Positions 2,971 through 53,646 of a stretch of 64,000 nucleotides of DNA are shown here, in pieces. Positions within the stretch are counted from its first letter, which is position 1. The number at the start of each line of letters is the position of its first letter. The notes beneath the pieces were generated by a model, which was given only the letters and a program-made list of their open reading frames with translations, had not been told where the DNA came from and did no database searches. The stretch is from Candidatus Nitrosocosmicus arcticus. Lineage in GTDB: Archaea > Thermoproteota > Nitrososphaeria > Nitrososphaerales > Nitrososphaeraceae. The translations under genes and the position numbers were made by a program. Location of the stretch: the NCBI RefSeq assembly GCF_007826885.1, contig NZ_ML675578.1, positions 1 through 64,000 on the forward strand, read 5' to 3'.

Positions 2971-5562
2971 CTACAAAGTAAAGTATTGGGCTGCTGGGTT
3001 ATGTACTACGATTGCAGCTGTAGAGAATTCAGGATCAATTTGACCACTTTCGGTTAGAGTCATTCCACTAATTGAAGGGTTCAATAGTTTCCAGACGAGG
3101 AAATGTTGGGTAATATCCGGACAGCTTGGGTAACCCCAACTGTACCTTAGCCCCCCTACCTTCAACCGGAGCTCCTCCTTGATTTTGTAATTTATCCAAT
3201 CTGCTAAAGCCTCTGTCGTTTCTACGGCCAACCCGTGTAAGTAATATGCATCAGTATAGCGACCTTGCTTATTCCATTCTTCTATTATCTGTGTAACCCT
3301 ATTTCCCATTGTTACTGACTGAAACGCAACAACATCATCGGATTCTGAATCAAAATAATCTGCAAGACACAGGTGTGAAGGATTGCTAGACCTCGGAAAC
3401 TCGAATACGATTTCTGAATCAATTTTATTATCAATCTGGTATTTTACGCAGAGACTATTGTTTCTAACCTTTCGGCATCGAAAGTACGAGTAAACTGCAT
3501 GGGGATCAAATAATTTCTCCTTTACAACTTTGACCTTCCATTCTTTAAGTAGTTCTTCATATTCATCTTTCAATTCGGTAGCTTTCTTTCCCCTTAATCC
3601 CCACGACAAAACAAAAAGGGATTTTTTATTCAAGTATTGCCATATTTCTTCGAAAGGGAGGTTCTTATTCTCAAGTCTGGTTGCAAAATTAAATTCAGGA
3701 GGGACCGGCTTTTCCTTTACGGGTTTCACGCTGCTTACAATATTACTTAGATCTTGTGAACTGGTAACCTCATTATATTTTCTCTCTTTCCAGCTTGTTA
3801 ATTTTTCCAACCATTTGTTCATGTATTCTTCTTTATTTCCACTCATCAGGTTATTCATCACTTTCAGCCCCTCAAAGGCAGTTTTGCAGTAGAATATCCC
3901 GGCTTTGTAAATATTGCCGTCTCCCTTCGCAATTCTACTAATGTAATCACTATTAATTGCAGCCCCACCGCATAAAACAGGAATGTCCATCTTATTCTCT
4001 CGCATAAATTCTGAGAAAAGCTGCATTTGTTTTGATGTCGAAACCAATAATGCAGATAATCCCACAGCATCTGCCTTTACTTCTTTAATCTTTTTCACTA
4101 TGCTAGGAATAGGAACTTGTTTTCCTAAATCAAAAACTTCATAGCCATTGTTAACCAATATGGTCTTTACCAAATTTTTTCCTATATCATGTACATCCCC
4201 ATAGACTGTACATAAGACGATTTTTCCTTTGCTGATTCCCTCTTGTTTAATCAAGTATTTCTCCAGCTCCACAACTGCAGCCTTCATGCATTCGGCTGAC
4301 TTTAGTACAAAAGGTAGGATCAATTCTCCTGCACCAAATTTATCTCCTACTTCTTTCATTGCCGGAAGAAGTACTTCATTTAGTGTTTGGACAGCCGCAT
4401 CATGTAATTTTTCTTTATTACCCGACAGTGTTTTCCTATTTGTTCTGTTTTCTAATAACTTGTCCGATAGAGTAAAATCACCTTTGGACGGCATTTTCTC
4501 TGATATGGATAAAACCACATCATTTTCAATACCATCTTTTAGTCTATTAACAATTCTAAAATAACATTTTTTACCGGCATCCCAACTTGCATCTATTTCC
4601 ATCAAATTGTTCTGTTTTTGATTACCTGTAGATCCTGTTCCGCTAACGACATCATTGGAACTAAAGTAAGATATTAACTCAGATAATGCATTACTATTGT
4701 TATTAAAGATGAGATCTTCGCATATTCTTTTTTCCTTCGAATTGATTTGCGGGTAGGGTATGATATCTTTGGGATTTATTATCACAGTATCAAGACCACT
4801 TTTTATTGCATGATACAAGAAAACCGAGTTTAGATATTTTCTAGCTAATGGTGACAATCCGAAGCTGACGTTACTTAATCCTAACGTTGTCAAAGACTTT
4901 GGATATTTTTCTTTTACGAACTTAATTCCGTCCAACGTATGAGATGCAGATGCAATATATTCTTCCTCACCTGTTGCTAACGTAAAGGTTAATACATCAA
5001 AAATTAACTGCCAGGGTTTCAAACCCAATCCAAATGCTTTGTCATATAATATTCCTGCAACCTCTAATTTTTCTTTACCAGTTTTTGCCATCCCATTCGG
5101 TCCTATGCACATGGAAATCGCAGGTGCTCCGTACTTCTTCATGAGAGGAGTAATTTCATTAAATCTATTGCCATCACCTTCAAGATTGATGGAATTGATT
5201 ATAGGTACGCCAGGAATCTGTTTAAGAGCGGTAGCAATAACCTTTGAATCCGTTGAATCTATTACTAAGGGCGCTTCTATTTCTAAACTGAGCCTCTTGA
5301 CGATTTTTTGCATAAAATCCTGTTCATCTGATCGTTCTGTTGTTGCAACGCATACATCTAGACAGTGTGCACCATCTTCTACTTGAAATCTCGCTAATTC
5401 AATTAACCCATCAAAGTCATTATCTAGGACCATTTTCTTGGCTTTCTTTGATCCTTGAGAATTCAATCGCTCTCCAATGATTAATGGACGGGGATTTTGA
5501 TGGAGCTCCAATGAAGATAGGGCTGAAGATACTTTTGGGTTTTCATTGTAAACTTTTTTCAT
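2971..5562 (-). CDS. metH: Methionine synthase, B12-dependent: pterin, cobalamin and activation domains
   Basis: The larger half of a two-gene cobalamin-dependent methionine synthase; it moves the methyl group from methyltetrahydropterin to cob(I)alamin. In order: a pterin-binding barrel (about 25-300, starting IIGERLNSQGSKK), the B12 cap helices (about 360-440), the Rossmann B12 domain with DVHDIG at 456-461 (His458 is the lower cobalt ligand), and a reactivation domain whose SAM-binding signature YSWGYPSCPD is at about 807-816. The homocysteine domain is missing here but encoded by the gene 28 nt upstream, so the two chains together make a full MetH. The start ATG directly follows that gene, which suggests co-transcription. 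Confidence 0.95.
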   Translation of the reverse strand: MKKVYNENPKVSSALSSLELHQNPRPLIIGERLNSQGSKKAKKMVLDNDFDGLIELARFQVEDGAHCLDVCVATTERSDEQDFMQKIVKRLSLEIEAPLVIDSTDSKVIATALKQIPGVPIINSINLEGDGNRFNEITPLMKKYGAPAISMCIGPNGMAKTGKEKLEVAGILYDKAFGLGLKPWQLIFDVLTFTLATGEEEYIASASHTLDGIKFVKEKYPKSLTTLGLSNVSFGLSPLARKYLNSVFLYHAIKSGLDTVIINPKDIIPYPQINSKEKRICEDLIFNNNSNALSELISYFSSNDVVSGTGSTGNQKQNNLMEIDASWDAGKKCYFRIVNRLKDGIENDVVLSISEKMPSKGDFTLSDKLLENRTNRKTLSGNKEKLHDAAVQTLNEVLLPAMKEVGDKFGAGELILPFVLKSAECMKAAVVELEKYLIKQEGISKGKIVLCTVYGDVHDIGKNLVKTILVNNGYEVFDLGKQVPIPSIVKKIKEVKADAVGLSALLVSTSKQMQLFSEFMRENKMDIPVLCGGAAINSDYISRIAKGDGNIYKAGIFYCKTAFEGLKVMNNLMSGNKEEYMNKWLEKLTSWKERKYNEVTSSQDLSNIVSSVKPVKEKPVPPEFNFATRLENKNLPFEEIWQYLNKKSLFVLSWGLRGKKATELKDEYEELLKEWKVKVVKEKLFDPHAVYSYFRCRKVRNNSLCVKYQIDNKIDSEIVFEFPRSSNPSHLCLADYFDSESDDVVAFQSVTMGNRVTQIIEEWNKQGRYTDAYYLHGLAVETTEALADWINYKIKEELRLKVGGLRYSWGYPSCPDITQHFLVWKLLNPSISGMTLTESGQIDPEFSTAAIVVHNPAAQYFTL

Positions 5563-25039: not shown

Positions 25040-25771
25040 TTAGGAGTAGGCCTTTTTACCAGTTAAGCGTTGGCTGAATCCTTCCCATTCAGTGGGACGA
25101 TTACGGTCATCCCATTGTTCATAATTTATGACTTTTTCCAGATCAAGTCTATTTAACCAGTTTTGTGATTGTAAATCAGGTTGGACCTCAAACTTGTTTA
25201 CATACCCAAGACAAAGATACGCTATAGGTTTAATATTGGTAGGGAGATTGAGAATTCTTTTTAGGTGTTTATTGTCGATGATGCTGACCCAGCCTACCCC
25301 TATATTCTCGGCGCGTGCGGCAAGCCATAAATTTTGAATAGCACAGCAGACACTGTAAATCCCAGCTTCCTTTATTGTCATTCTCCCTATTACATAGGGC
25401 CCAAATCGTCTATGGTCATAAGTTACGCATATGTTTAGGTTGGATTCTAAGATTCCTTCTAATTTTAGATCTAAATATTTCCTTTTCTTTTCTTTATCTT
25501 TTTCAAGCAATTCAACAGATTTTAACCTCTCTTTGGAGAATGATTCTTTTATATTTAGACGACTGCTTCTGTCTCTGATCAATATAAAATTCCATGGTTG
25601 AGAATAGCCAACGGACGGTGCATGATGAGCAGCTGTCAATATCCTCAATAAAACTTAATCACTAATTTTCTTCCTAGTAAAATTCCTCCTTACGTCTCGA
25701 CGGGAAAGAATGATTTTATAAAAAATCTCCTTTTCAATTTCTGTAAAATGCCCAATACTATTACCTGTCAA
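25040..25771 (-). pseudogene. bluB: 5,6-dimethylbenzimidazole synthase BluB, interrupted by an in-frame TAA
   Basis: BluB breaks down FMNH2 to make dimethylbenzimidazole, the lower ligand of cobalamin. The frame after a TTG at 25648 gives 202 residues matching BluB throughout: ILTAAHHAPSVGYSQPWNF, LKLEGI, QNLWLAARAENIGVGWVSI, AYLCLGYV. The same frame continues upstream across one TAA (25655-25657) into IEKEIFYKIILSRRDVRRNF, the normal BluB N-terminus with its flavin-binding RRDVR, back to a TTG at 25771. The stop stands where BluB has an acidic residue (PDDVL type), so a single GAA-to-TAA change explains it. Restart at the TTG six bases beyond would lack the RRDVR segment. Sequence error cannot be excluded. 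Confidence 0.8.
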
Positions 25772-36062: not shown

Positions 36063-36171
36063 CTAATAATGCATAATACTCCATTAAAAATTATAAATGT
36101 TTTTTTATTTTATCTGGTTCATATACAGTTAAATTAAATTCCATAATTAGAGGTATACAAGATAGGCATAA

Positions 36172-37998
36172 ATGAATAATCTGTCCGAAAACAACAACCA
36201 TAACTCGACTGGTACTCATCAAGATTCTAATGCTCTGAATCCCAGAAATAATGATATCCATGACATCCTAGCAGAGAATGACAAATATAAAAGATCTAAG
36301 ATTCTTATAGAAAAGAATCTTGTAGTTACTTCAGCCTTGCCTTATGCTAATGGCCAGATTCATCTTGGTCATATTGCATCAACATATCTACCAGCCGATA
36401 TTTTCACTAGATTCGTCAGATTGACCGGTAGACTAATTTATCATATTTGTGCTACTGATGATTATGGGACACCTATCCTTATAAAAGCCGAGAAGGAGGG
36501 AAAGACCCCTGAAGAGTATGTTAGAGAATGGAATGAAAGGGACAAAAAAGATTTTGAATCCGTGGGCATTAATTTTGATTATTTTTCAAAGACTAGTTCC
36601 CCTCAAAATATAAAATTTGTGCAGGATGTCTTTATGAAGCTGTATAAGAACAATCACATTAAAGAGGAAATTGTGGTTCAATTTTTTTGTACATTTGATA
36701 ACAAGTATTTACCAGACAGATATGTCATAGGCAGATGTCCATTTTGTAAATCCGAAAACCAATATTCTGATCTTTGTGAATCTTGTGGTAGAGTCCCCGA
36801 ACAAATTCTGGATCCTCAATGTGTCCTGTGTGGAAGACCACCTGTTAAGAAGGAAAGTCTTCATTATTTTTTTAAATTGTCTGATTTTGATAAATCCCTA
36901 AAAATTTGGCTTTCCGATAATAAGAATTTACAAGAGGACGTAGTAAAATATGTTTTAAACTGGATTACTGCAGGTTTGCAGGATTGGGATATTACTAGAG
37001 ATCTAACTTGGGGGGTGCCCATTCCAAAGATTGAAGGATTTCAGAACTATGAAGACAAAGTATTTTACGGCTGGTTTGACAATCACCTATGTTATATTTC
37101 ATCATTTAATACTTTTGCAGAGGCCATCCTTAAGAAAGATGGTAGGAAACTTTGGAATGATTCTGAAATCATTCATTATATAGGAAAAGATATAATCTAT
37201 CATCACTATCTGTTTCTCCCTGCGATCAGACTTGGAATTAAAAGTGAGTACAAATTACCTGATAGAATAGTTACAAGAGGTCATCTACTATTCCAAAATA
37301 GAAAGTTATCAAAGAGTAAAAATTGGTCGATAACTTTGGGAGGATTTACAAAGTCCTTTGACCCGGATTATCTTAGATTCTATTTTTCCACTATTATCCC
37401 ATATTCACAATCTGACATTAATTTTGACTGGGATAGTTTTTATGAAAAAATTAATAATGAGCTTATATCTAACATAGGAAACTTTATCAACCGCACCCTC
37501 TCCTTTACCAAGAAACAATTTGATGGAAAAATCCCTCCAAGAACCATTTTAGACAGTGTTGATAAACAAGCATTGATAGAGATTACACAAATCGCATACA
37601 TTGTAGGCGAATTAATTTTTGGAAACGAAATAGATAAGGCTATGAAGAGGATTCTGCAGTTTAGTACCTTTTTTAATCAGTACTTCCAGTCTAAAGAACC
37701 TTGGAAGTCACGTCAGGAGTCAAATAATTCCATCTGGATATCTGCAAATGCGGTAAGATCAATAGCGATATTATTATTTCCATTCATTCCCACATCTGCG
37801 CAGAAAATCTGGAAGCAATTGGGAATTTCAGAAAACTTATCAGACCAAGACTGGTATTCAGCATCTGAGTTAAGAATCCCTAACGATCATAATATTGGTA
37901 ACGATATAATTCCCATTTTTAAAAGGATTGAAAGGACCGAGATTGAAGATCAAAAAACTGGATTTTTGGATACTGGAATAACAAGGGCGAAAACCTGA
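36172..37998 (+). CDS. metG: Methionyl-tRNA synthetase
   Basis: Charges tRNA-Met. A class I enzyme with ALPYANGQIHLGHIA at 55-69 (HIGH-type HLGH at 64-67) and KLSKS at 378-382. The inserted zinc knuckles are CPFC at 189-192 and CESC at 202-205, with a second pair CVLC at 217-220. 608 residues without the C-terminal tRNA-binding domain. The first 47 residues are an Asn/His/Asp-rich extension that is not part of the fold; translation from a later start would be possible but no better ATG is nearby. nadM follows after 35 nt. Confidence 0.96.
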   Translation: MNNLSENNNHNSTGTHQDSNALNPRNNDIHDILAENDKYKRSKILIEKNLVVTSALPYANGQIHLGHIASTYLPADIFTRFVRLTGRLIYHICATDDYGTPILIKAEKEGKTPEEYVREWNERDKKDFESVGINFDYFSKTSSPQNIKFVQDVFMKLYKNNHIKEEIVVQFFCTFDNKYLPDRYVIGRCPFCKSENQYSDLCESCGRVPEQILDPQCVLCGRPPVKKESLHYFFKLSDFDKSLKIWLSDNKNLQEDVVKYVLNWITAGLQDWDITRDLTWGVPIPKIEGFQNYEDKVFYGWFDNHLCYISSFNTFAEAILKKDGRKLWNDSEIIHYIGKDIIYHHYLFLPAIRLGIKSEYKLPDRIVTRGHLLFQNRKLSKSKNWSITLGGFTKSFDPDYLRFYFSTIIPYSQSDINFDWDSFYEKINNELISNIGNFINRTLSFTKKQFDGKIPPRTILDSVDKQALIEITQIAYIVGELIFGNEIDKAMKRILQFSTFFNQYFQSKEPWKSRQESNNSIWISANAVRSIAILLFPFIPTSAQKIWKQLGISENLSDQDWYSASELRIPNDHNIGNDIIPIFKRIERTEIEDQKTGFLDTGITRAKT

Positions 37999-38033
37999 GA
38001 TGATTATTATTTTGTTAGTTTTTTAAAATTAGA

Positions 38034-38600
38034 ATGACGACGAATATGGCTGCCGCAATGATAGGACGATTTCAACCATTCCATTTGGGACATCTGGAAT
38101 TAGTTCGTCAAATACTAAATGAAAATGATGAAATAATTATTCTGATAGGGAGCTCACAAGCAAATTATACCGTAAAAAACCCATTCACTGCGGGAGAAAG
38201 GATTTGGATGATTAGAGACAGCCTCATTGAATCAAAAATTGACATGTCCAAAGTATTCATGATCAATGCGACTGATGATGAAAACAACGCGAGGTGGTTC
38301 AGCAATATCAGGTCATCAACTCCGCCATTTAAAATTCTTTATACTGGAAACAATTTTGTCAGAACCCTGCTAAAAAAAGAAACCATAATCATCAAAAAAC
38401 CAAGATTGCTAGAAGAAAATTTATTGAAAGGCTCAGTAATTCGGAAATTAATTCTTGAGAACAACTCCAAATGGCAAGATTTGGTTTCTGAATCGGTAAA
38501 AAAAGTCTTTAGAGAAATTGCCGCAGTAGAACGCATTAGAAGCATCCATCAAGCTTGGATGGATTCTCCTTTCTCAGAACCTAAAAAATATGCTGAATAA
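38034..38600 (+). CDS. nadM: Nicotinamide-nucleotide adenylyltransferase
   Basis: Joins NMN or nicotinate mononucleotide to ATP, making NAD or its precursor. The archaeal NadM pattern is clear: GRFQPFHLGH at 11-20 (HxGH-type nucleotidyl transfer motif) and a late RSIHQAWMDSPFSEPKKY. 188 residues is a normal length. The first ATG is 7 codons before the conserved MIGRFQPFHLGH and is plausible, though the internal ATGs at codons 5 or 9 could also serve. It is probably co-transcribed with metG. NAD synthase (nadE) lies about 18 kb away. Confidence 0.93.
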   Translation: MTTNMAAAMIGRFQPFHLGHLELVRQILNENDEIIILIGSSQANYTVKNPFTAGERIWMIRDSLIESKIDMSKVFMINATDDENNARWFSNIRSSTPPFKILYTGNNFVRTLLKKETIIIKKPRLLEENLLKGSVIRKLILENNSKWQDLVSESVKKVFREIAAVERIRSIHQAWMDSPFSEPKKYAE

Positions 38601-39088
38601 TCATCACCAGCTTCTATTTTCTAGGGTCAAATCTGCACCCACAAGCAATAATAATATGATAATACTTGACGCCTGTGTAAAATTTTTCCTAAATATATTT
38701 ATTTTTTTGATGAGATTTTAGATAACTCGATACATAGGAGCTTGAGCTAAGCAAACTACTCAAAGATGATAATAGATCGTTTTAATTTTCGAAATGCGTT
38801 ACGAACTCTACTCTTATGATCCTTAATATGAGAAATACTAATAATCGAATCCAAGATTTAAATGCCTTATGCAATTAACTTCTGGTCCCTGATTTCCTTT
38901 TTGTTATACAGTAACAGTCAAAAGTTCAACCGATCATGCTAAATTAACTAGATTCTTTCTTAATTACCTTTGACAACTAGTATTTTCATAGTTATAATGT
39001 AATCTTAGTCGACATCTAAATCTGGATACCACCCGATTATTCTCATCCTATTTTGAGTTTTATTAAGATAAGAGAGTAGTTAGAAAAG
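38601..39088. other. Intergenic stretch, no gene seen
   Basis: Almost 490 bases between the convergent ends of nadM and egtD. I found no plausible reading frame, tRNA or strong stem-loop. T-rich words near 38696-38710 (ATATTTATTTTTTTGAT) could end nadM transcription. Confidence 0.4.
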
Positions 39089-40069
39089 TCAACATGGTTT
39101 TAGCAATACAAGATTGAACCAATTATTGTTATCAGAAAAAATCTTTTCTATCGATAAACCAGATCGAATTACTAATCTTTGAATTTTATCTTCACTATAT
39201 TTGTACGAGTTTTCAGTGTGAATAGTTTCACCTCGAGATATATGAAATATTTTATCATATCCTAATATTCTGACTTCTTGATCTGATATAGATTTGAGAT
39301 GCATCTCGATGCGATCTTTTTCTTTGTTAAAGAATGCATAATGAACATATTCACGAAGGTCAAAATTACATCCCAACTCCCTATTCATTCGAGTTAACAA
39401 ATTTAAATTAAATTGAGCGGTGTATCCTGCTTTATCGTTATAGGCTGGTTCGATGAGAAATTGATCCTTTATCAGATCAAAACCAACAAGTAGATAGTCC
39501 TTGTCATTCATGTTGAGTCTAACAGCCTTTAAAAAGTCTCTAGCTTCGTCAATTTCAAAATTGCCTATACTAGAACCAAAGAAAATTATTATTCTAGAAA
39601 ATGAATCGAATTTAAAATTGTTCTCAAATAATATATTATTGCAATCTTTGATCCCATTTATGTAATCATTAGGAATACCTTTAATCATTATATTCTCATT
39701 CTGTGTTTCCAGATCAGTTACTACAGAATCTAGGAAATTGAAGGAAATATCAATTGGAAAGTAATAGAGTTTATCTTGTCTTTTCAATATCGTGTCGAAT
39801 AGATGTTTGGTCTTTTTTGAACTACCACTTCCCATCTCTATTAAAATGATCTCTTTTGGAATGTTTTGCAAAATCTTATCTGAATATTCTTCTAGTATAC
39901 TATTTTCTGTTCTAGTTGGATAATATTCAGGTTGAACGGTAATTTGTTCAAATAAATAAGAACCTCTATTATCATATAAATATTTAGATGGTACAGATTT
40001 CTGAATAGGATTAGATAGTCCTTTCAAGATATCGGTTCTAAATTCTTCGTTGTTATCATCCAAATGCAA
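39089..40069 (-). CDS. egtD: L-histidine N-alpha-methyltransferase EgtD-type
   Basis: Probably trimethylates histidine to hercynine, the first step of ergothioneine synthesis. The EgtD layout is clear over 326 residues: QITVQPEYYPTRTE (about 41-55), the SAM motif GSGSSKKT at 80-87, IFFGSSIGNF (family FPGSTIGNF), AYNDKAGYTAQFNLNLLTRMNRELG, and late MHLKS. EgtB, which would add the sulfur, is not in the window, so the final product is uncertain. It has its own promoter (TATA-like ATATAAAT about 25-33 nt upstream) and stands alone, between intergenic sequence and cofH. Confidence 0.85.
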   Translation of the reverse strand: MHLDDNNEEFRTDILKGLSNPIQKSVPSKYLYDNRGSYLFEQITVQPEYYPTRTENSILEEYSDKILQNIPKEIILIEMGSGSSKKTKHLFDTILKRQDKLYYFPIDISFNFLDSVVTDLETQNENIMIKGIPNDYINGIKDCNNILFENNFKFDSFSRIIIFFGSSIGNFEIDEARDFLKAVRLNMNDKDYLLVGFDLIKDQFLIEPAYNDKAGYTAQFNLNLLTRMNRELGCNFDLREYVHYAFFNKEKDRIEMHLKSISDQEVRILGYDKIFHISRGETIHTENSYKYSEDKIQRLVIRSGLSIEKIFSDNNNWFNLVLLKPC

Positions 40070-40093
40070 ATTTTACTTAATGTTTAGGAGTAA

Positions 40094-40102
40094 GATATAA
40101 AT
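40094..40102 (-). promoter_or_regulatory. TATA-like element of egtD
   Basis: Reads ATTTATATC on the minus strand, 25-33 nt before the egtD ATG, fitting a leaderless transcript. Confidence 0.45.
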
Positions 40103-40170
40103 ATTTTTGTTATCAGCGCTTATTCTTACAGACTAATGACCATAGTATCTGCCTTATTTCCGTGCACGAG

Positions 40171-41418
40171 TTAACTTTTCTTAAACCTAAATCTATTCAA
40201 TTTGATCAATTCATTATATGATCCAAATCTGTCAGGATTGATTTTGTCGAGAGAATTTTCTGAATCGATCTCCTCCCTAGTCTTAAAATCTTTTATGATT
40301 TCATATTTAGATGTTCGCTGTGCTGGTATCTTACCTGCCGCCTCGATGATTTTTCGCATATCTACAGGCCTTATAAATTGTCCATACTGCGAGCCCGCAG
40401 AAGTTGATATACTCTCGTTAATTAAACACCCTCCCAGGTCATTTGCTCCAGCACTGAGCAATATTTGGGATAATTTTGGTCCCTCTTTAACCCATGAAAC
40501 CTGAAGATTGTCAATAAAATTATTGAAGAAAATTCGTGAAATCGCATGCATTTTCAAAATTTCTAATCCGTCAGCTCCTGGCCTGATGTTTTTGACTAAA
40601 TGATGATTTGACATTGGAGCGTCGTAGTGAACATAACTCAATGGAACAAATTCTGTGAATTTTCCATGTTGTTTTTGAATATCTCTAATTATCTCTAAAT
40701 GAGCAATAATATCGCTATTGCTTTCGACATGCCCATACATTATTGTGGAAGTGGTTGGTAGGTCAAGCTTATGTGCTGTAGAAATTACATCGATCCATTG
40801 TTCTATGGTAATCCGACCTGGAGAAATCTTGTTTCTTATCTCTCTTACAAGAATCTCCGCTGAGGTTCCAGGCAAACTACCTAGGCCAGCCTCCTTTAGC
40901 ATTTTTAAATAATCATGAATTTTTGTGTTAGATAATGTAGATCCATACAAAATTTCCTCTGGGGAGAAGGCATGAATATGTATATCAGGCAATTCCTTCT
41001 TTATCGCTTTACATATGTCGACGTAAAAAAAGCCATCCATTTTGGGGGGTAATCCTGCCTGGATACATATTTCAGTAGCTCCAAACTGCCATGCTTCTTT
41101 AGCCCTCCTTACTATCTCTTCAATTGGTAAAAGATAACCTTCTTCCACTCTAAAATCTCTGCTGAAGGCACAAAATCCACATTGCTTTATACAGACATTT
41201 GTAAAATTAATATTTCTATTTATAACATAAGTTACAGTTTCGCCATTTGTACGCCTTCGCAGCTCATCAGCAACAAGAGTTATGACGGATAAACTAGGTC
41301 CAGTATCTTCAAACAGCTTTAATGTATCGACCGATGAGATTTCCTTCCCATCTAAAGCCCTTCCAAGGATCGAAGAGATTTCAGGATCAATGTTTCTAAA
41401 TATATTCTCAATATTCAT
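40171..41418 (-). CDS. cofH: FO synthase subunit CofH (radical SAM)
   Basis: With CofG makes F0, the chromophore of coenzyme F420; CofH adds the tyrosine-derived radical part. The 4Fe-4S radical SAM cluster motif is C76-x3-C80-x2-C83 (CIKQCGFC). ICIQAGLPPKMDGFFYVDICKAIK and GRITIEQWIDVISTAHKLDLPTTSTIMYG are typical of the MqnC/CofH branch. 415 residues is normal. It overlaps cofG by 11 nt. The stop-codon end faces egtD. It could be confused with menaquinone MqnE/MqnC, but the adjacent cofG decides the call. Confidence 0.94.
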   Translation of the reverse strand: MNIENIFRNIDPEISSILGRALDGKEISSVDTLKLFEDTGPSLSVITLVADELRRRTNGETVTYVINRNINFTNVCIKQCGFCAFSRDFRVEEGYLLPIEEIVRRAKEAWQFGATEICIQAGLPPKMDGFFYVDICKAIKKELPDIHIHAFSPEEILYGSTLSNTKIHDYLKMLKEAGLGSLPGTSAEILVREIRNKISPGRITIEQWIDVISTAHKLDLPTTSTIMYGHVESNSDIIAHLEIIRDIQKQHGKFTEFVPLSYVHYDAPMSNHHLVKNIRPGADGLEILKMHAISRIFFNNFIDNLQVSWVKEGPKLSQILLSAGANDLGGCLINESISTSAGSQYGQFIRPVDMRKIIEAAGKIPAQRTSKYEIIKDFKTREEIDSENSLDKINPDRFGSYNELIKLNRFRFKKS

Positions 41419-42637
41419 TATTAATAAACTCCTCTTTGACCAAGCCGTATTTATCTATCAACGGTTCTATATAGTCTTTAAGGTCACTGTGCACGAATTT
41501 ACGTGACAAGTCCGAATTAATTATGTATTTTGGATAGACCGGCAAACGTGCCCTTAATGTAAATCCTTTTTTTCTTGTTACTGTACTAACATTCTCAATA
41601 GTAGGCCAAGGTGATTCTGGATTGACATAATCTGGTGTAATCGGTGAAATGCCGCCCCAATCATTGATCCCAGCATCAAGGTAATTTGAATATACATCAG
41701 GGCTTAAGTTGGGCGGAACCTGAAGACTAATACCTTCCAAAATTATTCGAGCTGCTGTAATACATCTTAAAAAGTATGGATATGAAGGCGATTTTGCATA
41801 TTCCATTGGGGTCCCTTTCTTTGGTAAAAAATTTTGCATAATTACTTCTTGAATGTGACCATAATTCTTATTAATATTATTTATTAGTAACAAGGATTCA
41901 ACTACTTCGTCAAAACTTTCATCTATACCTATTAAGAGTCCTGTAGTAATTGGAAAATTAAGTTCACCAGCTGAAACCAATGATTTTAATCTTACTTTAG
42001 GATTCTTGCTTGGAGCTTTTTCATGAGCTTTACCTTTATCAGTCAATCGTTCGCTAGAACTCTCCAGCATCATACCCAAACTTGCATTAGTCGATTTTAG
42101 CATAGACATCTCTTTTTTTGTCAGGCTACCAGCATTTGTGTGAGGTAACATTCCAGTCTGTGAGAGTATTTTATCACTTAAATCTGCCAATAACTCGGAC
42201 AGATTCTTATATCCAAGTACCGTAAGCCACCTTTTGGCCTCTTGATATTTAATCTCAGGTCTCTCACCGGTTACAATCAATACTTCAGTGCATCTTGCTT
42301 TTTTTCCCAGTTTAGCAATTGCTATGGCTTGTGATGGGCTGAGCATAACAGCTTCGGCGTCAGTAGGTTCTTTTTTGTATGTACAATATGAACATGAATC
42401 TTTACACAGATTAATCAAATTGATAAAAACTTTTCGTGAGTATGTGACAAACTTGTCGTCTATCCTGTTACGAAGAAAAGTGGCCAAAATGCTAAGGTCT
42501 TTAATCTCAGCAGTGGACAACAAATCCTTGAGTTCGTAATTGTCAATCGTTTTTTTTTCGATTATCTTATAAATGATTTCGTTCGAATATAATTTTTTTG
42601 ATAAATATTGATGGTTTTGGTTTCCATGTACAGTCAT
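41408..42637 (-). CDS. cofG: FO synthase subunit CofG (radical SAM)
   Basis: The second F0 synthase subunit, acting on the 5-amino-6-ribitylamino-uracil/tyrosine adduct to close the ring. The radical SAM motif is C78-x3-C82-x2-C85 (CKDSCSYC). EVLIVTGERPEIKY, LPHTNAGSLTKKEM and ASLGMMLESSSERL are family segments. 409 residues, with ATG start. It is first in the cofG-cofH pair, overlapping by 11 nt. F420 supports flavin-independent reductases in these archaea. Confidence 0.95.
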   Translation of the reverse strand: MTVHGNQNHQYLSKKLYSNEIIYKIIEKKTIDNYELKDLLSTAEIKDLSILATFLRNRIDDKFVTYSRKVFINLINLCKDSCSYCTYKKEPTDAEAVMLSPSQAIAIAKLGKKARCTEVLIVTGERPEIKYQEAKRWLTVLGYKNLSELLADLSDKILSQTGMLPHTNAGSLTKKEMSMLKSTNASLGMMLESSSERLTDKGKAHEKAPSKNPKVRLKSLVSAGELNFPITTGLLIGIDESFDEVVESLLLINNINKNYGHIQEVIMQNFLPKKGTPMEYAKSPSYPYFLRCITAARIILEGISLQVPPNLSPDVYSNYLDAGINDWGGISPITPDYVNPESPWPTIENVSTVTRKKGFTLRARLPVYPKYIINSDLSRKFVHSDLKDYIEPLIDKYGLVKEEFINNEY

Positions 42638-42755
42638 TTATTTTGAATGAATCTACATAGTGAATCTTTACATTAAAGCCTTACTATGATAAAGTTCAAA
42701 TTGATATTTATCGCGAAAAATATTTCCCAAATAAACAATATACATGCAGCGATAG

Positions 42756-42763
42756 TATAAAAT
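42756..42763 (+). promoter_or_regulatory. TATA box of the B12 mutase subunit gene
   Basis: GTATAAAA-type element about 34-41 nt before the ATG at 42797, giving a short leader. Confidence 0.4.
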
Positions 42764-42796
42764 ATTTTAAGCCCGGGATATATGATATTATAGTAT

Positions 42797-43249
42797 ATGA
42801 CCACTTCATTGATCAAGGAAACTTCAGAGAAGGAAAAATCAAAAGACCTTTCTCAAAAGAAAATCAGGATTTTGGTTACAAAACTGGGATTGGATGGTCA
42901 CGACCGTGGGGCCCTAGTAATATGCAGAGCCCTTAGAGATTCCGGCATGGAAGTAATATATTCCGGATTATTCTGTACACCTGAACAAGTTGTAAAAACT
43001 GCGATTGAGGAGGATGTAGATGTGATTGCGATGAGTTTGCTTAATGGCGCTCACTTGACATTATTTCCGAAAGTTTCTCGTTTGCTAAGGGAACAGAATG
43101 TTCAAAACATATTGTTGGTAGGAGGAGGGGTAATACCCGAATCAGATAAGAGCGAATTAGAAAAGGCAGGCATAACAGGGAATTTTGGACCAGGTACCTC
43201 TCTTGATAAAATTATTGAACATATCGTAAAAAATGTAAAAAAAAATTGA
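42797..43249 (+). CDS. Methylmalonyl-CoA mutase small subunit, B12-binding domain
   Basis: A stand-alone cobalamin-binding subunit of an acyl-CoA mutase. The base-off B12 motif DGHDRG lies at 33-38 (H35 is the cobalt ligand), and the rest is the Rossmann domain seen at the C-terminus of bacterial MutB (GLFCTPEQVVKTAIEEDVDVIAMSLLNGAH, LLVGGGVIPESD). The catalytic large subunit is not in the window. In these archaea the split mutase interconverts methylmalonyl- and succinyl-CoA in the 3-hydroxypropionate/4-hydroxybutyrate cycle. 150 residues, including about 20 charged N-terminal ones. Confidence 0.95.
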   Translation: MTTSLIKETSEKEKSKDLSQKKIRILVTKLGLDGHDRGALVICRALRDSGMEVIYSGLFCTPEQVVKTAIEEDVDVIAMSLLNGAHLTLFPKVSRLLREQNVQNILLVGGGVIPESDKSELEKAGITGNFGPGTSLDKIIEHIVKNVKKN

Positions 43250-49577: not shown

Positions 49578-49674
49578 GTAACTGACCTGCTATCTTATTC
49601 ACAGAAAATTAATATCAAGATTACTATTATAAATATCCAATTTGCGGATGTTGAAATCTACACCTCAAATGTAA

Positions 49675-50538
49675 TTATTCAACTATTGCTTTAGTGTTGT
49701 TGACTTTTGCTAGGATGATTTTCCCGTCAAATTTTTCCATCGAATTCACGAAATTTTCAACATTGTCCTTATATACTACTGCCGCCATTGCTGGCCCATT
49801 TCCTGAATGACTAATGGCTAAACAATGGTTTTCAAAAGCATTGATCATAGGTGCGTAATTATTGTATAAAACTGAATTTATTAGGACCCCGTTGAGATTC
49901 ATTGCTTTCCAATAATCACCTTTTAGCGCCAGCCTAAAGGCATGGTTAAACAAGTCTTTATGAATCCGCAATTTAAGAATTTCACCTCTAGCAACACCTG
50001 CAGGCAAATAAATAACAACAGCAAGATCATTATTTACCATGTCTCTCTTAATTATTTTTTTAAAGTGATTGTCCGTCAATATAACTCCACCATAGTAGCA
50101 AGCACAAGCATCGTCAAATGCACCAGTCATGCTCACCTTTGCCCATAAAGATGAATTGACGGCGGTGCTTAATACGGCTCTGTCATGTATCTCATCATCT
50201 AATAACTTGAAACATGCTAGAGAAATAGCATTTGAGACCGCGCTAGAGCTTTTCAATCCCCAACCAGCAGGTATTTCGGAAATTAAGCTGATAGATATGA
50301 AATGATTTTTTAAAATGCTTGCTGGCAATATACTCTTGATTATCTTATTTACAAGCTTGTCATTTACGAAATTTCTAGATATTCCATTATGACCTGGCTC
50401 AATTGATATCTTTACTTTGACTTTTTGCGAAATACCGAAAGTACAACCCTTTCCAGTTGCAATGGCATTTACTATAGATATTGCACCAAACATAGTAACA
50501 GATGCAGAAGAATTTTTCATCTTAATTTGGTTCACCAA
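49675..50538 (-). CDS. aroK: Shikimate kinase, archaeal GHMP type
   Basis: Phosphorylates shikimate. It is not the bacterial P-loop AroK but the GHMP-kinase (homoserine kinase-like) replacement found in archaea: GAISIVNAIATGKGCTFGI at the N-terminus, the glycine/serine phosphate loop IPAGWGLKSSSAVSNAISLA, and GAFDDACACYYGG. 287 residues is the usual length. It overlaps aroE by 17 nt, and aroA follows it 97 nt later. Its identity is backed by this position between the shikimate dehydrogenase and EPSP synthase genes. Confidence 0.93.
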   Translation of the reverse strand: MVNQIKMKNSSASVTMFGAISIVNAIATGKGCTFGISQKVKVKISIEPGHNGISRNFVNDKLVNKIIKSILPASILKNHFISISLISEIPAGWGLKSSSAVSNAISLACFKLLDDEIHDRAVLSTAVNSSLWAKVSMTGAFDDACACYYGGVILTDNHFKKIIKRDMVNNDLAVVIYLPAGVARGEILKLRIHKDLFNHAFRLALKGDYWKAMNLNGVLINSVLYNNYAPMINAFENHCLAISHSGNGPAMAAVVYKDNVENFVNSMEKFDGKIILAKVNNTKAIVE

Positions 50539-51418
50539 ATATTCCCAATAGTGCTTTTCTCATGACTTTTCTGGGTGCATTCATCCCTGTCCATATTTCA
50601 AATGATTTATAACCTTGATTTAGTAACATCTCATATCCAAATATTAGCTTTGCATGGGCTCTCTTTGCACACTCTAATAAATCAGTCATGATTGGTTTGT
50701 AAATTATATCAAATACTATCGATTCCTTGCCCATGGAGTCGTCCCTTAACAGACTTGTCTCGTTTTTAAGACCTACAGAAGTAGTGTTGATAATCAATTT
50801 GCTTTGTGAAGAGATTTGGGACAATTTTTTTTGATCTAAATAATCTATAGGATTGCAGTTTAATCCCAAGCTAGTACCCAACTCTATGACTTTAGACAGT
50901 TTCTGTTGATCTCTATTTACCATAAAAATTGTTTTTATACCTTTTTTTTTGGATAGTCCCACTAGTGCAGCTCTACTGGATCCGCCTGCTCCAAGTATTA
51001 AAATTTCCATCCCTTCAAAATTTGATATCCTTTCTTCAATAGGGGCCATTAATCCATATATATCTGTGTTATACCCAACAAAAATTCCGTCTTCGTTTTT
51101 AACCGTATTGACTGATCCTGCCAAAGTAGCCTCATCACTTAACCTGTCAACATAGTATGTCATTTCTACCTTGTGTGGAATGGTGACGTTGAACCCTGCA
51201 ATATTAATATCGTGCAATGATTCCACTGATTCTTTTAGTTCGTTTACTTTTACTTTAAAGGCAATGTATGAATAATTTAAATTCAAATACTTAAAAGCAG
51301 CATTATGCATTAATGGAGACAATGAATGCTCCACGGGATCTCCTATAATGCAAAAAGTCTTAGAAGATTTATCTGCGGCTACCTGTTGATTAGATACATC
51401 CACATTAACATTGCTCAT
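50522..51418 (-). CDS. aroE: Shikimate dehydrogenase
   Basis: Reduces 3-dehydroshikimate to shikimate with NADPH. The substrate pocket signature FCIIGDPVEHSLSPLMHNAAF is near the N-terminus, with the catalytic Lys of NVTIPHKVEM and the ILILGAGGSSRAALVGLS nucleotide motif; NRDQQKL after it fits NADP. 298 residues, slightly long because of about 22 extra N-terminal residues (VSNQQVAADKSSKT). Begins a tight run aroE-aroK-aroA-aroC on the minus strand. Confidence 0.95.
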   Translation of the reverse strand: MSNVNVDVSNQQVAADKSSKTFCIIGDPVEHSLSPLMHNAAFKYLNLNYSYIAFKVKVNELKESVESLHDINIAGFNVTIPHKVEMTYYVDRLSDEATLAGSVNTVKNEDGIFVGYNTDIYGLMAPIEERISNFEGMEILILGAGGSSRAALVGLSKKKGIKTIFMVNRDQQKLSKVIELGTSLGLNCNPIDYLDQKKLSQISSQSKLIINTTSVGLKNETSLLRDDSMGKESIVFDIIYKPIMTDLLECAKRAHAKLIFGYEMLLNQGYKSFEIWTGMNAPRKVMRKALLGIFGEPN

Positions 51419-52053
51419 GACTATATACAGAATAGTTTTTGAAGCATATTTATTCTAAAGCACTTTAATTATAGTTTGTCCTGTCAATTAAGAAGCTACA
51501 TTCCAAATTAGCAGTTAAGACCGTGTTGAAATGGTTGAATCTTTAGACATTACCATAATTCATTATTTCAATTATTTGCACCCCACAGAACAATATCAAG
51601 TCAAGTTCTATCAATGCCTTTTTTCCAATTGTTTTTCAATTTACATTGTTTCTTCACCATTTCCACCTACCAACCATTTGATGGGTGGATGATTAGGCCT
51701 CAGTAGAGACTGTAATTTTCTTATTAACATCACAAAATATCGTGGGAGGCAATAGACGGCCATTTTTGCCTTATATAAGCGACAGGATGTGATCCTATGT
51801 ATGATTATCATAAACCCTAAATCCAATTCAAATAGAATATGATCGATACTTTATTCTCTAAAGTATCTTTAAAGACTTAACCTGTAAATATCCACTTATT
51901 TCAATTTGTAACGGTGATTGATTCTGTAACGAATCCTATCGTGGAAACTGGAGCAAATTGTGGAACGATATCTATATAGGTGATTGGAATAAGCTGAAAT
52001 CCATAAAAGGGTAAAAGGGTAATATAATAGTTCTAATCTTTTGATATTTTTGA
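51419..52053. other. Long intergenic stretch inside the aromatic cluster
   Basis: 635 bases between aroE and aroD on the minus strand. A palindromic TATA element (CTTATATAAG, 51770-51779) occurs near the middle and could drive either strand. A 40-codon ATG frame follows it on the minus strand (about 51641-51763) but lies too close to the element to be leaderless and has no family resemblance. The left 100 bases probably hold the aroE promoter (TTATTCTAAAGC, ACTTTAATTATAG). No tRNA or strong hairpin seen. Confidence 0.4.
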
Positions 52054-52776
52054 TTAAACCAGTTTGCTTTTAAACAATTTATTAATTGATTTCATTTGGT
52101 CTATTGACAATTGACCTGGGGCCAAAGCAGCACCAATAGACGCGTAAGTGAATGGGGCATCCCCAACCACTGTACATAAAACTCTACTTAATACACCCAA
52201 TTCACCCATTGCAAAAGCAATCAAGTTAATATGCGTATCAATTGATCGATATATCATTAATATCTTGATTGAATCGTCTATGGTTCTTGCAGTAGTGACT
52301 ATTTTTACAAAAGGGCTGTAAATTGTCATGTTTTTTACTTGTTCTAAGAGGTGATCAAATTCAGGAGTATGCGAAAAATCATGCCAACTTACTAAAATTT
52401 GGGTATTTTCATTTTCAACCAGATCGGCGATAGAGTCGTTATTAGAAATTAAATTGTATTCGATATCTACAAAGAGTGGTTTTCTCTGAATAAATTTTGT
52501 TATTATATCGGCCCTTTTCTTAGGATCATTTGAAAATTTGCCGCCTTCATTCTCAGGTCTGATTGTGTAAATACATTTGGCCTTATATATTGACAAAATA
52601 TCTAGATAATGATCTAAATTTTCGAAACTGCTAAGGTAATCAAATCTACATTCAATAATATCCACCCCCTTATTTAGCGCCTCATCTATTTTACTTACGG
52701 TCATTACCAAATCTTCACTACTATCGATATCCTTCGTGATAGGAATGGATGCACATAATTTTCTATGGGTAGACAA
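52054..52776 (-). CDS. aroD: 3-Dehydroquinate dehydratase, type I
   Basis: Removes water from 3-dehydroquinate through a Schiff base. A TIM-barrel enzyme with IIECRFDYLSSF at the substrate strand, VDIEYNLI, the catalytic His in VSWHDFSHTP and the Schiff-base lysine in FVKIVTTA. 240 residues. ASIGAALAPGQLSI near the end is a family signature. It lies 81 nt after tatC on the minus strand and starts the dehydratase-to-dehydrogenase part of the cluster. Confidence 0.93.
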   Translation of the reverse strand: MSTHRKLCASIPITKDIDSSEDLVMTVSKIDEALNKGVDIIECRFDYLSSFENLDHYLDILSIYKAKCIYTIRPENEGGKFSNDPKKRADIITKFIQRKPLFVDIEYNLISNNDSIADLVENENTQILVSWHDFSHTPEFDHLLEQVKNMTIYSPFVKIVTTARTIDDSIKILMIYRSIDTHINLIAFAMGELGVLSRVLCTVVGDAPFTYASIGAALAPGQLSIDQMKSINKLFKSKLV

Positions 52777-52857
52777 GATTAGATGAATAAAGAACTAGCA
52801 TGATATTTTTATGTCTTTCTCCCTGAACACATACTTTGACAAGGTTTGGTGGATTTC

Positions 52858-53646
52858 TTATTTGTTACTTACTCTTAATTTTATTATCGCTATCCCAATT
52901 CCGTATAATAACAACATTGGTATGGAGATAAACCACATAGTTATTCCACTGCCATCAGGGGTTATTACTGCACCAAAGATGATTATTATCAAAAGCGCAT
53001 ACTTAAAATTCTTTATCCAAAATTGGAGATTGACAAGACCGCTAGCTGAAAGGATAAACATAACGAGCGGTAATTGGAAAGAGATCCCAAATGCTATGAA
53101 GAACTGTAGTACAAAATTAATGAAATCCGAGATGTTCAGAAATGTTAGGACACCAATTGATTGTCCATATTGATACAAAAATGTCAGAGTGATTGGTATA
53201 GCCAAATAGAAAGAGAAAACCATTCCGCTTAAGAAAAGAATTGTAGTGGGTAGTAGGAATGTAAAGAATGCTTTTTTTCTGCTTGTGAAAGACATTGCAG
53301 GGCTGATGAATCCAAAAACCTCCCTAACAATCAAAGGGATTGAACAAGAAACTGAAATTAGAATCGCAACGTAAATTTGCGCGTAAAGGGATTGTCCGGG
53401 TGCTGTTTGAATCAATTCCACACCGTGTGGGACCAGGCTTTTGCTTAAAAATAATGTCACCTGACTTGCGATATTATTATAGACCGTAGGCATAATGAAA
53501 TAGAAAGAATGATTATTCACTGTCACTATCTGAATGCCAAAAACAGTACAAAAAATCATTAATGCTATGGTAATGACTATTATCCTCAAAAATCGATTTC
53601 GTAGTTCTTTTACATGATCAATGAATAGCATATCGCCAGGCGCCAT
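52858..53646 (-). CDS. tatC: Twin-arginine translocase subunit TatC
   Basis: The multi-spanning receptor subunit of the Tat export system, which recognises twin-arginine signals on folded proteins. About six membrane helices can be picked out over 262 residues. The family signature near the N-terminus, DHVKELRNRFLRI, and the FxxP-type segment QLPLVMFILSASGLV are present. It is placed between aroD and the DNA methyltransferase gene on the minus strand; no tatA lies next to it. Its place in the aromatic cluster has no obvious functional meaning. Confidence 0.93.
   Translation of the reverse strand: MAPGDMLFIDHVKELRNRFLRIIVITIALMIFCTVFGIQIVTVNNHSFYFIMPTVYNNIASQVTLFLSKSLVPHGVELIQTAPGQSLYAQIYVAILISVSCSIPLIVREVFGFISPAMSFTSRKKAFFTFLLPTTILFLSGMVFSFYLAIPITLTFLYQYGQSIGVLTFLNISDFINFVLQFFIAFGISFQLPLVMFILSASGLVNLQFWIKNFKYALLIIIIFGAVITPDGSGITMWFISIPMLLLYGIGIAIIKLRVSNK

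Follow-up and report, generated by a model that had tools for sequence, protein, structure and literature searches.

In Candidatus Nitrosocosmicus arcticus, an ammonia-oxidising archaeon, the inherited bluB gene has probably been inactivated very recently by one nonsense mutation, a loss that is tolerated through a second, intact bluB in the same genome. The probability of this reading is put at roughly 0.7. Most likely, then, the inherited gene has only just become a pseudogene, and the other copy that made it redundant was probably acquired.

In the proposed mechanism, a nonsense mutation hit codon 39 of the inherited bluB, the gene for 5,6-dimethylbenzimidazole (DMB) synthase. Translation would then end after 38 residues, and the remaining frame is not expected to make DMB because the RRDVR segment is missing from it. 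The second bluB, which lies on contig C8 and belongs to another branch of the genus bluB family, is predicted to supply DMB to intact CobT and CobS. Loss of the inherited gene would be tolerated because of this second intact copy.

The inherited gene lies in the window, the whole stretch of 64,000 nucleotides that was analysed. The focal assembly consists of 22 contigs (2.64 Mb, 98% complete). Contigs are labelled with C-numbers and comparison genomes with G-numbers, G007 being the nearest relative. The features of the window bluB are the following.

25040..25771, minus strand: bluB frame of the inherited line, 243 codons, interrupted by a single in-frame stop (TIGR02476, 218 bits; synteny and closeness to G007)
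25655..25657, minus strand: in-frame TAA, codon 39 (direct reading; a sense codon in every relative compared)
25658..25771, minus strand: leading 38 codons, including the RRDVR segment (direct reading; RRDVR aligned to Sinorhizobium meliloti BluB via the C8 copy)
25040..25648, minus strand: trailing open frame, 202 codons from a TTG at 25648 (TIGR02476 positions 34-203 only; without RRDVR)

The frame starts at a TTG (25771-25769) and runs to 25040. Read directly, its translation around the stop (TAA, 25657-25655) is LTGNSIGHFTEIEKEIFYKIILSRRDVRRNFTRKKISD, then the stop, then VLLRILTAAHHAPSVG and onward. The BluB model TIGR02476, which has a curated cut-off of 150 bits, spans the stop without a break, matching model positions 1-203 of 205 with one TAA inside the alignment. 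Read through the stop, the frame is a full-length match above this cut-off. A preliminary description had seen here a BluB frame with a single TAA and had excluded a homopolymer slip. Both observations hold: the window bluB frame contains no frameshift, the TAA is its single in-frame interruption, and the frame alignment shows no other damage. Among 18 frames compared with G007 in the surrounding 20 kb, bluB is the only one interrupted in the window. An uninterrupted frame that includes RRDVR is found in the C8 copy and not in the window.

The trailing frame could in principle begin again at the TTG at 25648 and yield a 202-residue protein with some function of its own. It is long, open and conserved, and TTG starts are listed throughout the region. 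Such conservation is expected, since the frame was formerly part of an intact gene. The product would lack RRDVR, which is present in every compared copy except one from G010, where it reads RRHVR. Nothing was found in favour of a working restart, which the preliminary description had raised, and it is very unlikely.

Several observations place the window bluB in the inherited line. The window and G007 share 93% DNA identity over 14.9 kb, and bluB occurs in matching surroundings in those Nitrosocosmicus relatives whose contigs are long enough. In a protein tree, window BluB groups with G007 (support 100/97), adjoining G013, G005, G004 and G012. Judged by synteny and tree, the gene is the inherited orthologue, whose location does not change across Nitrosocosmicus, and it occupies the position of an intact gene in relatives, as a pseudogene should. 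In a profile search, bluB scores above the cut-off in 55 of 70 family genomes, and only the focal genome has an in-frame stop.

Alignment of the locus with relatives, as had been proposed, returns a sense codon at the stop position in every one compared. The preliminary description had taken this position to be normally acidic and had derived the TAA from GAA. The idea is borne out by G007, which has Glu (GAA), and by S. meliloti BluB, which has an aligned Glu. It fails for the rest of the genus, where the residue is mostly Lys (AAG where read) and also Gln, His or Ala. The ancestral codon is therefore uncertain, because the position is usually Lys in the genus and Glu only in G007.

The age of the stop can be approached through selection. 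On the window bluB branch since the split from G007, nonsynonymous and synonymous changes stand at 7:14 with one outgroup, compared with 118:185 in the neighbouring genes (p 0.65). With four outgroups the bluB ratio is 9:16. No relaxed selection on the window bluB since inactivation was detected in this comparison with neighbouring genes. If an omega of 0.09 is assumed, the best estimate is that about 0.07-0.09 of the branch evolved without selection, and a fraction of at least 0.3 is disfavoured. Normal selection means that the stop is either very recent or a consensus error, and sequence comparison cannot separate these two cases.

The ratio of 7:14 against 118:185 thus also fits an intact gene with an error in its consensus, and counts to that extent against the preferred explanation. 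The TAA might be such an error or a minority allele, with the inherited bluB intact in most cells and two working bluB genes in the genome. Purifying selection on the rest of the gene is normal and other damage is absent, which speaks for this alternative. On the other hand, the 17 neighbouring frames have no comparable fault, and a true nonsense change is expected precisely in a redundant gene. The published assembly of Ca. N. arcticus Kfb was built from Illumina and IonTorrent reads (PMC6657660); if it is the one used here, a single wrong substitution in so deep a consensus is unlikely. An error or minority allele is accordingly improbable, if far from negligible. A closed genome has also been reported for Kfb (PMC13006922), and the strain exists in pure culture.

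Read-through of the stop, another suggestion of the preliminary description, would give a full protein and would agree with the normal selection seen before and after the TAA. However, TAA is the commonest terminal stop in the neighbouring genes (9 of 16), the stop occurs in no relative, and RNA structure at the stop is no more than chance (z 0.09). With nothing found that favours it specifically, read-through is hardly credible.

A search for a second intact bluB, also proposed earlier, was positive. The preliminary description had held that, with an intact copy elsewhere, the matter would come down to an error or a simple pseudogene, and by that standard it is one of the two. The gene lies on contig C8 together with two other features of interest.

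C8:59555-60277: second bluB, intact, 240 amino acids (TIGR02476, 219 bits)
C8:57831-58931: tyrosine-recombinase relative (weak match to XerA, E 1.6e-5)
C8:60463-61788: thiC, on the strand opposite to bluB

The focal genome is the only one of 70 family genomes searched that has two full-scoring bluB copies. These share 68% DNA identity. In the protein tree the C8 copy groups with three bluB sequences of G010 (100/96), apart from the inherited line. The second copy thus has an unbroken frame and belongs to a branch other than that of the inherited gene, as replacement demands. It would have arrived by transfer before the stop arose, and we infer that it is expressed.

C8 BluB aligns with residues 13-224 of S. 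meliloti BluB (2ISJ; E 1.2e-58) and retains both RRDVR and GWVSI. In S. meliloti, DMB synthesis presumably depends on two residues of these segments, the Asp in RRDVR and the Ser in GWVSI; a literature search for active-site work on that enzyme found no paper.

C8 could be suspected of being a contaminating contig. This was rejected: it matches G007 at 94% identity over 36110-43238, at 89% over 49587-53175 and at 89% over 76005-81214. C8 is the organism's own contig, since sequence on either side of the second bluB matches this sister genome. Between these flanks, about 55.7-76.0 kb of C8 is mostly without a match in the G007 contigs examined.

The later steps of lower-ligand use are also present in the focal genome. 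Both CobS and an archaeal CobT (TIGR00303, 361 bits) are encoded without stops. The Pfam model for CobT, PF02277, has no match in 15 Nitrosocosmicus genomes, which might suggest that the genus lacks CobT. That idea was discarded, because TIGR00303 finds the archaeal protein in the focal genome. Surveys that use PF02277 alone would wrongly score CobT as missing.

With the conserved segments kept in C8 BluB, and with intact CobT and CobS, the C8 copy is predicted to sustain both the synthesis of DMB and its attachment. On this genomic evidence B12 synthesis is probably unharmed, and cobalamin output would be unchanged. The preliminary description had considered that lower-ligand synthesis might be truly lost or altered in the strain. 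The genus may be able to do without this synthesis, as no bluB scores above the cut-off in the Nitrosocosmicus genomes G008 and G009 (94% and 99% complete). Against this stand the open, full-length C8 bluB with its conserved segments and the presence of CobT and CobS, which make such a loss or change highly improbable.

Two B12-dependent enzymes had been named in the window, MetH and a mutase subunit. MetH is indeed encoded there (2971-5562). The other, presumably the gene at 42797-43249 on the plus strand, encodes a lone B12-binding domain protein of 150 amino acids, which matches a mutase small subunit in size. The group to which the archaeon belongs is regarded as a soil B12 producer (PMC6908642).

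The two bluB copies can be compared with known systems. Both the window frame and the C8 gene resemble BluB (TIGR02476; S. meliloti BluB, PDB 2ISJ/2ISK/2ISL) in matching the whole model above its cut-off, but the window copy has a stop at codon 39 and, as it stands, does not encode the enzyme. The arrangement also resembles xenologous or paralogous displacement pseudogenisation, in which the inherited copy is broken in its ancestral place and an intact copy of another branch lies elsewhere. It differs in that decay is here at its first step, with a single base altered and selection not yet relaxed, and in that the order of events is a proposed one.

The preferred reading is nothing out of the ordinary: a gene that a second copy had rendered redundant has suffered a nonsense mutation, apparently caught early. 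Gene duplication and lateral gain have been reported as shaping Nitrososphaerales genomes (PMC7603488). In the main texts searched, nothing was found on this bluB. If the stop is real, it represents the first step of a gene displacement in a cultured soil ammonia-oxidising archaeon. A gene table that listed the broken bluB alone would suggest a strain unable to make DMB. Likewise, a table that showed a bluB match alone would hide the replacement.

The intact second bluB adjoins the genome's only intact thiC and lies near the tyrosine-recombinase relative (C8:57831-61788). The unmatched stretch of C8 also holds a PriX primase subunit and a P4-type primase/helicase. It is likely an integrated element. 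Its ends are not delimited, because no terminal direct repeats of at least 15 bases were found flanking the stretch and the contigs of G007 are interrupted in this region.

C8 ThiC was considered as an anaerobic lower-ligand enzyme and rejected. It scores 595 bits with the ThiC model (cut-off 410) and fails the BzaB model with 488 bits (cut-off 700). Within the genus thiC is patchy: the single-contig genomes G002 and G004 lack it, and G003 has two. In the focal genome, contig C4 carries a truncated thiC remnant (about 68805-69249) that covers about the first 149 residues and has several frameshifts.

G010 has up to three bluB-thiC pairs (contigs C45/C267, C256 and C261). As this genome is in many contigs, a mixture of strains is possible. 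The bluB on its C256 is the copy with RRHVR in place of RRDVR, and the one on C261 is truncated. Beside the truncated bluB and thiC of C261 lies a relative of the C8 recombinase, as judged by eye.

The thiC tree neither places the C8 gene firmly nor shows the tie to G010 seen for bluB. A firm common history of C8 thiC and bluB, and hence their joint travel, is therefore not established. It is possible, though rather doubtful, that a bluB-thiC pair next to a tyrosine recombinase is mobile within Nitrosocosmicus and takes the place of resident copies in the genomes it reaches. In the focal genome this would correspond to a resident bluB that has just been stopped, a resident thiC reduced to the C4 remnant, and both working genes on C8; G010 has two or three such pairs.
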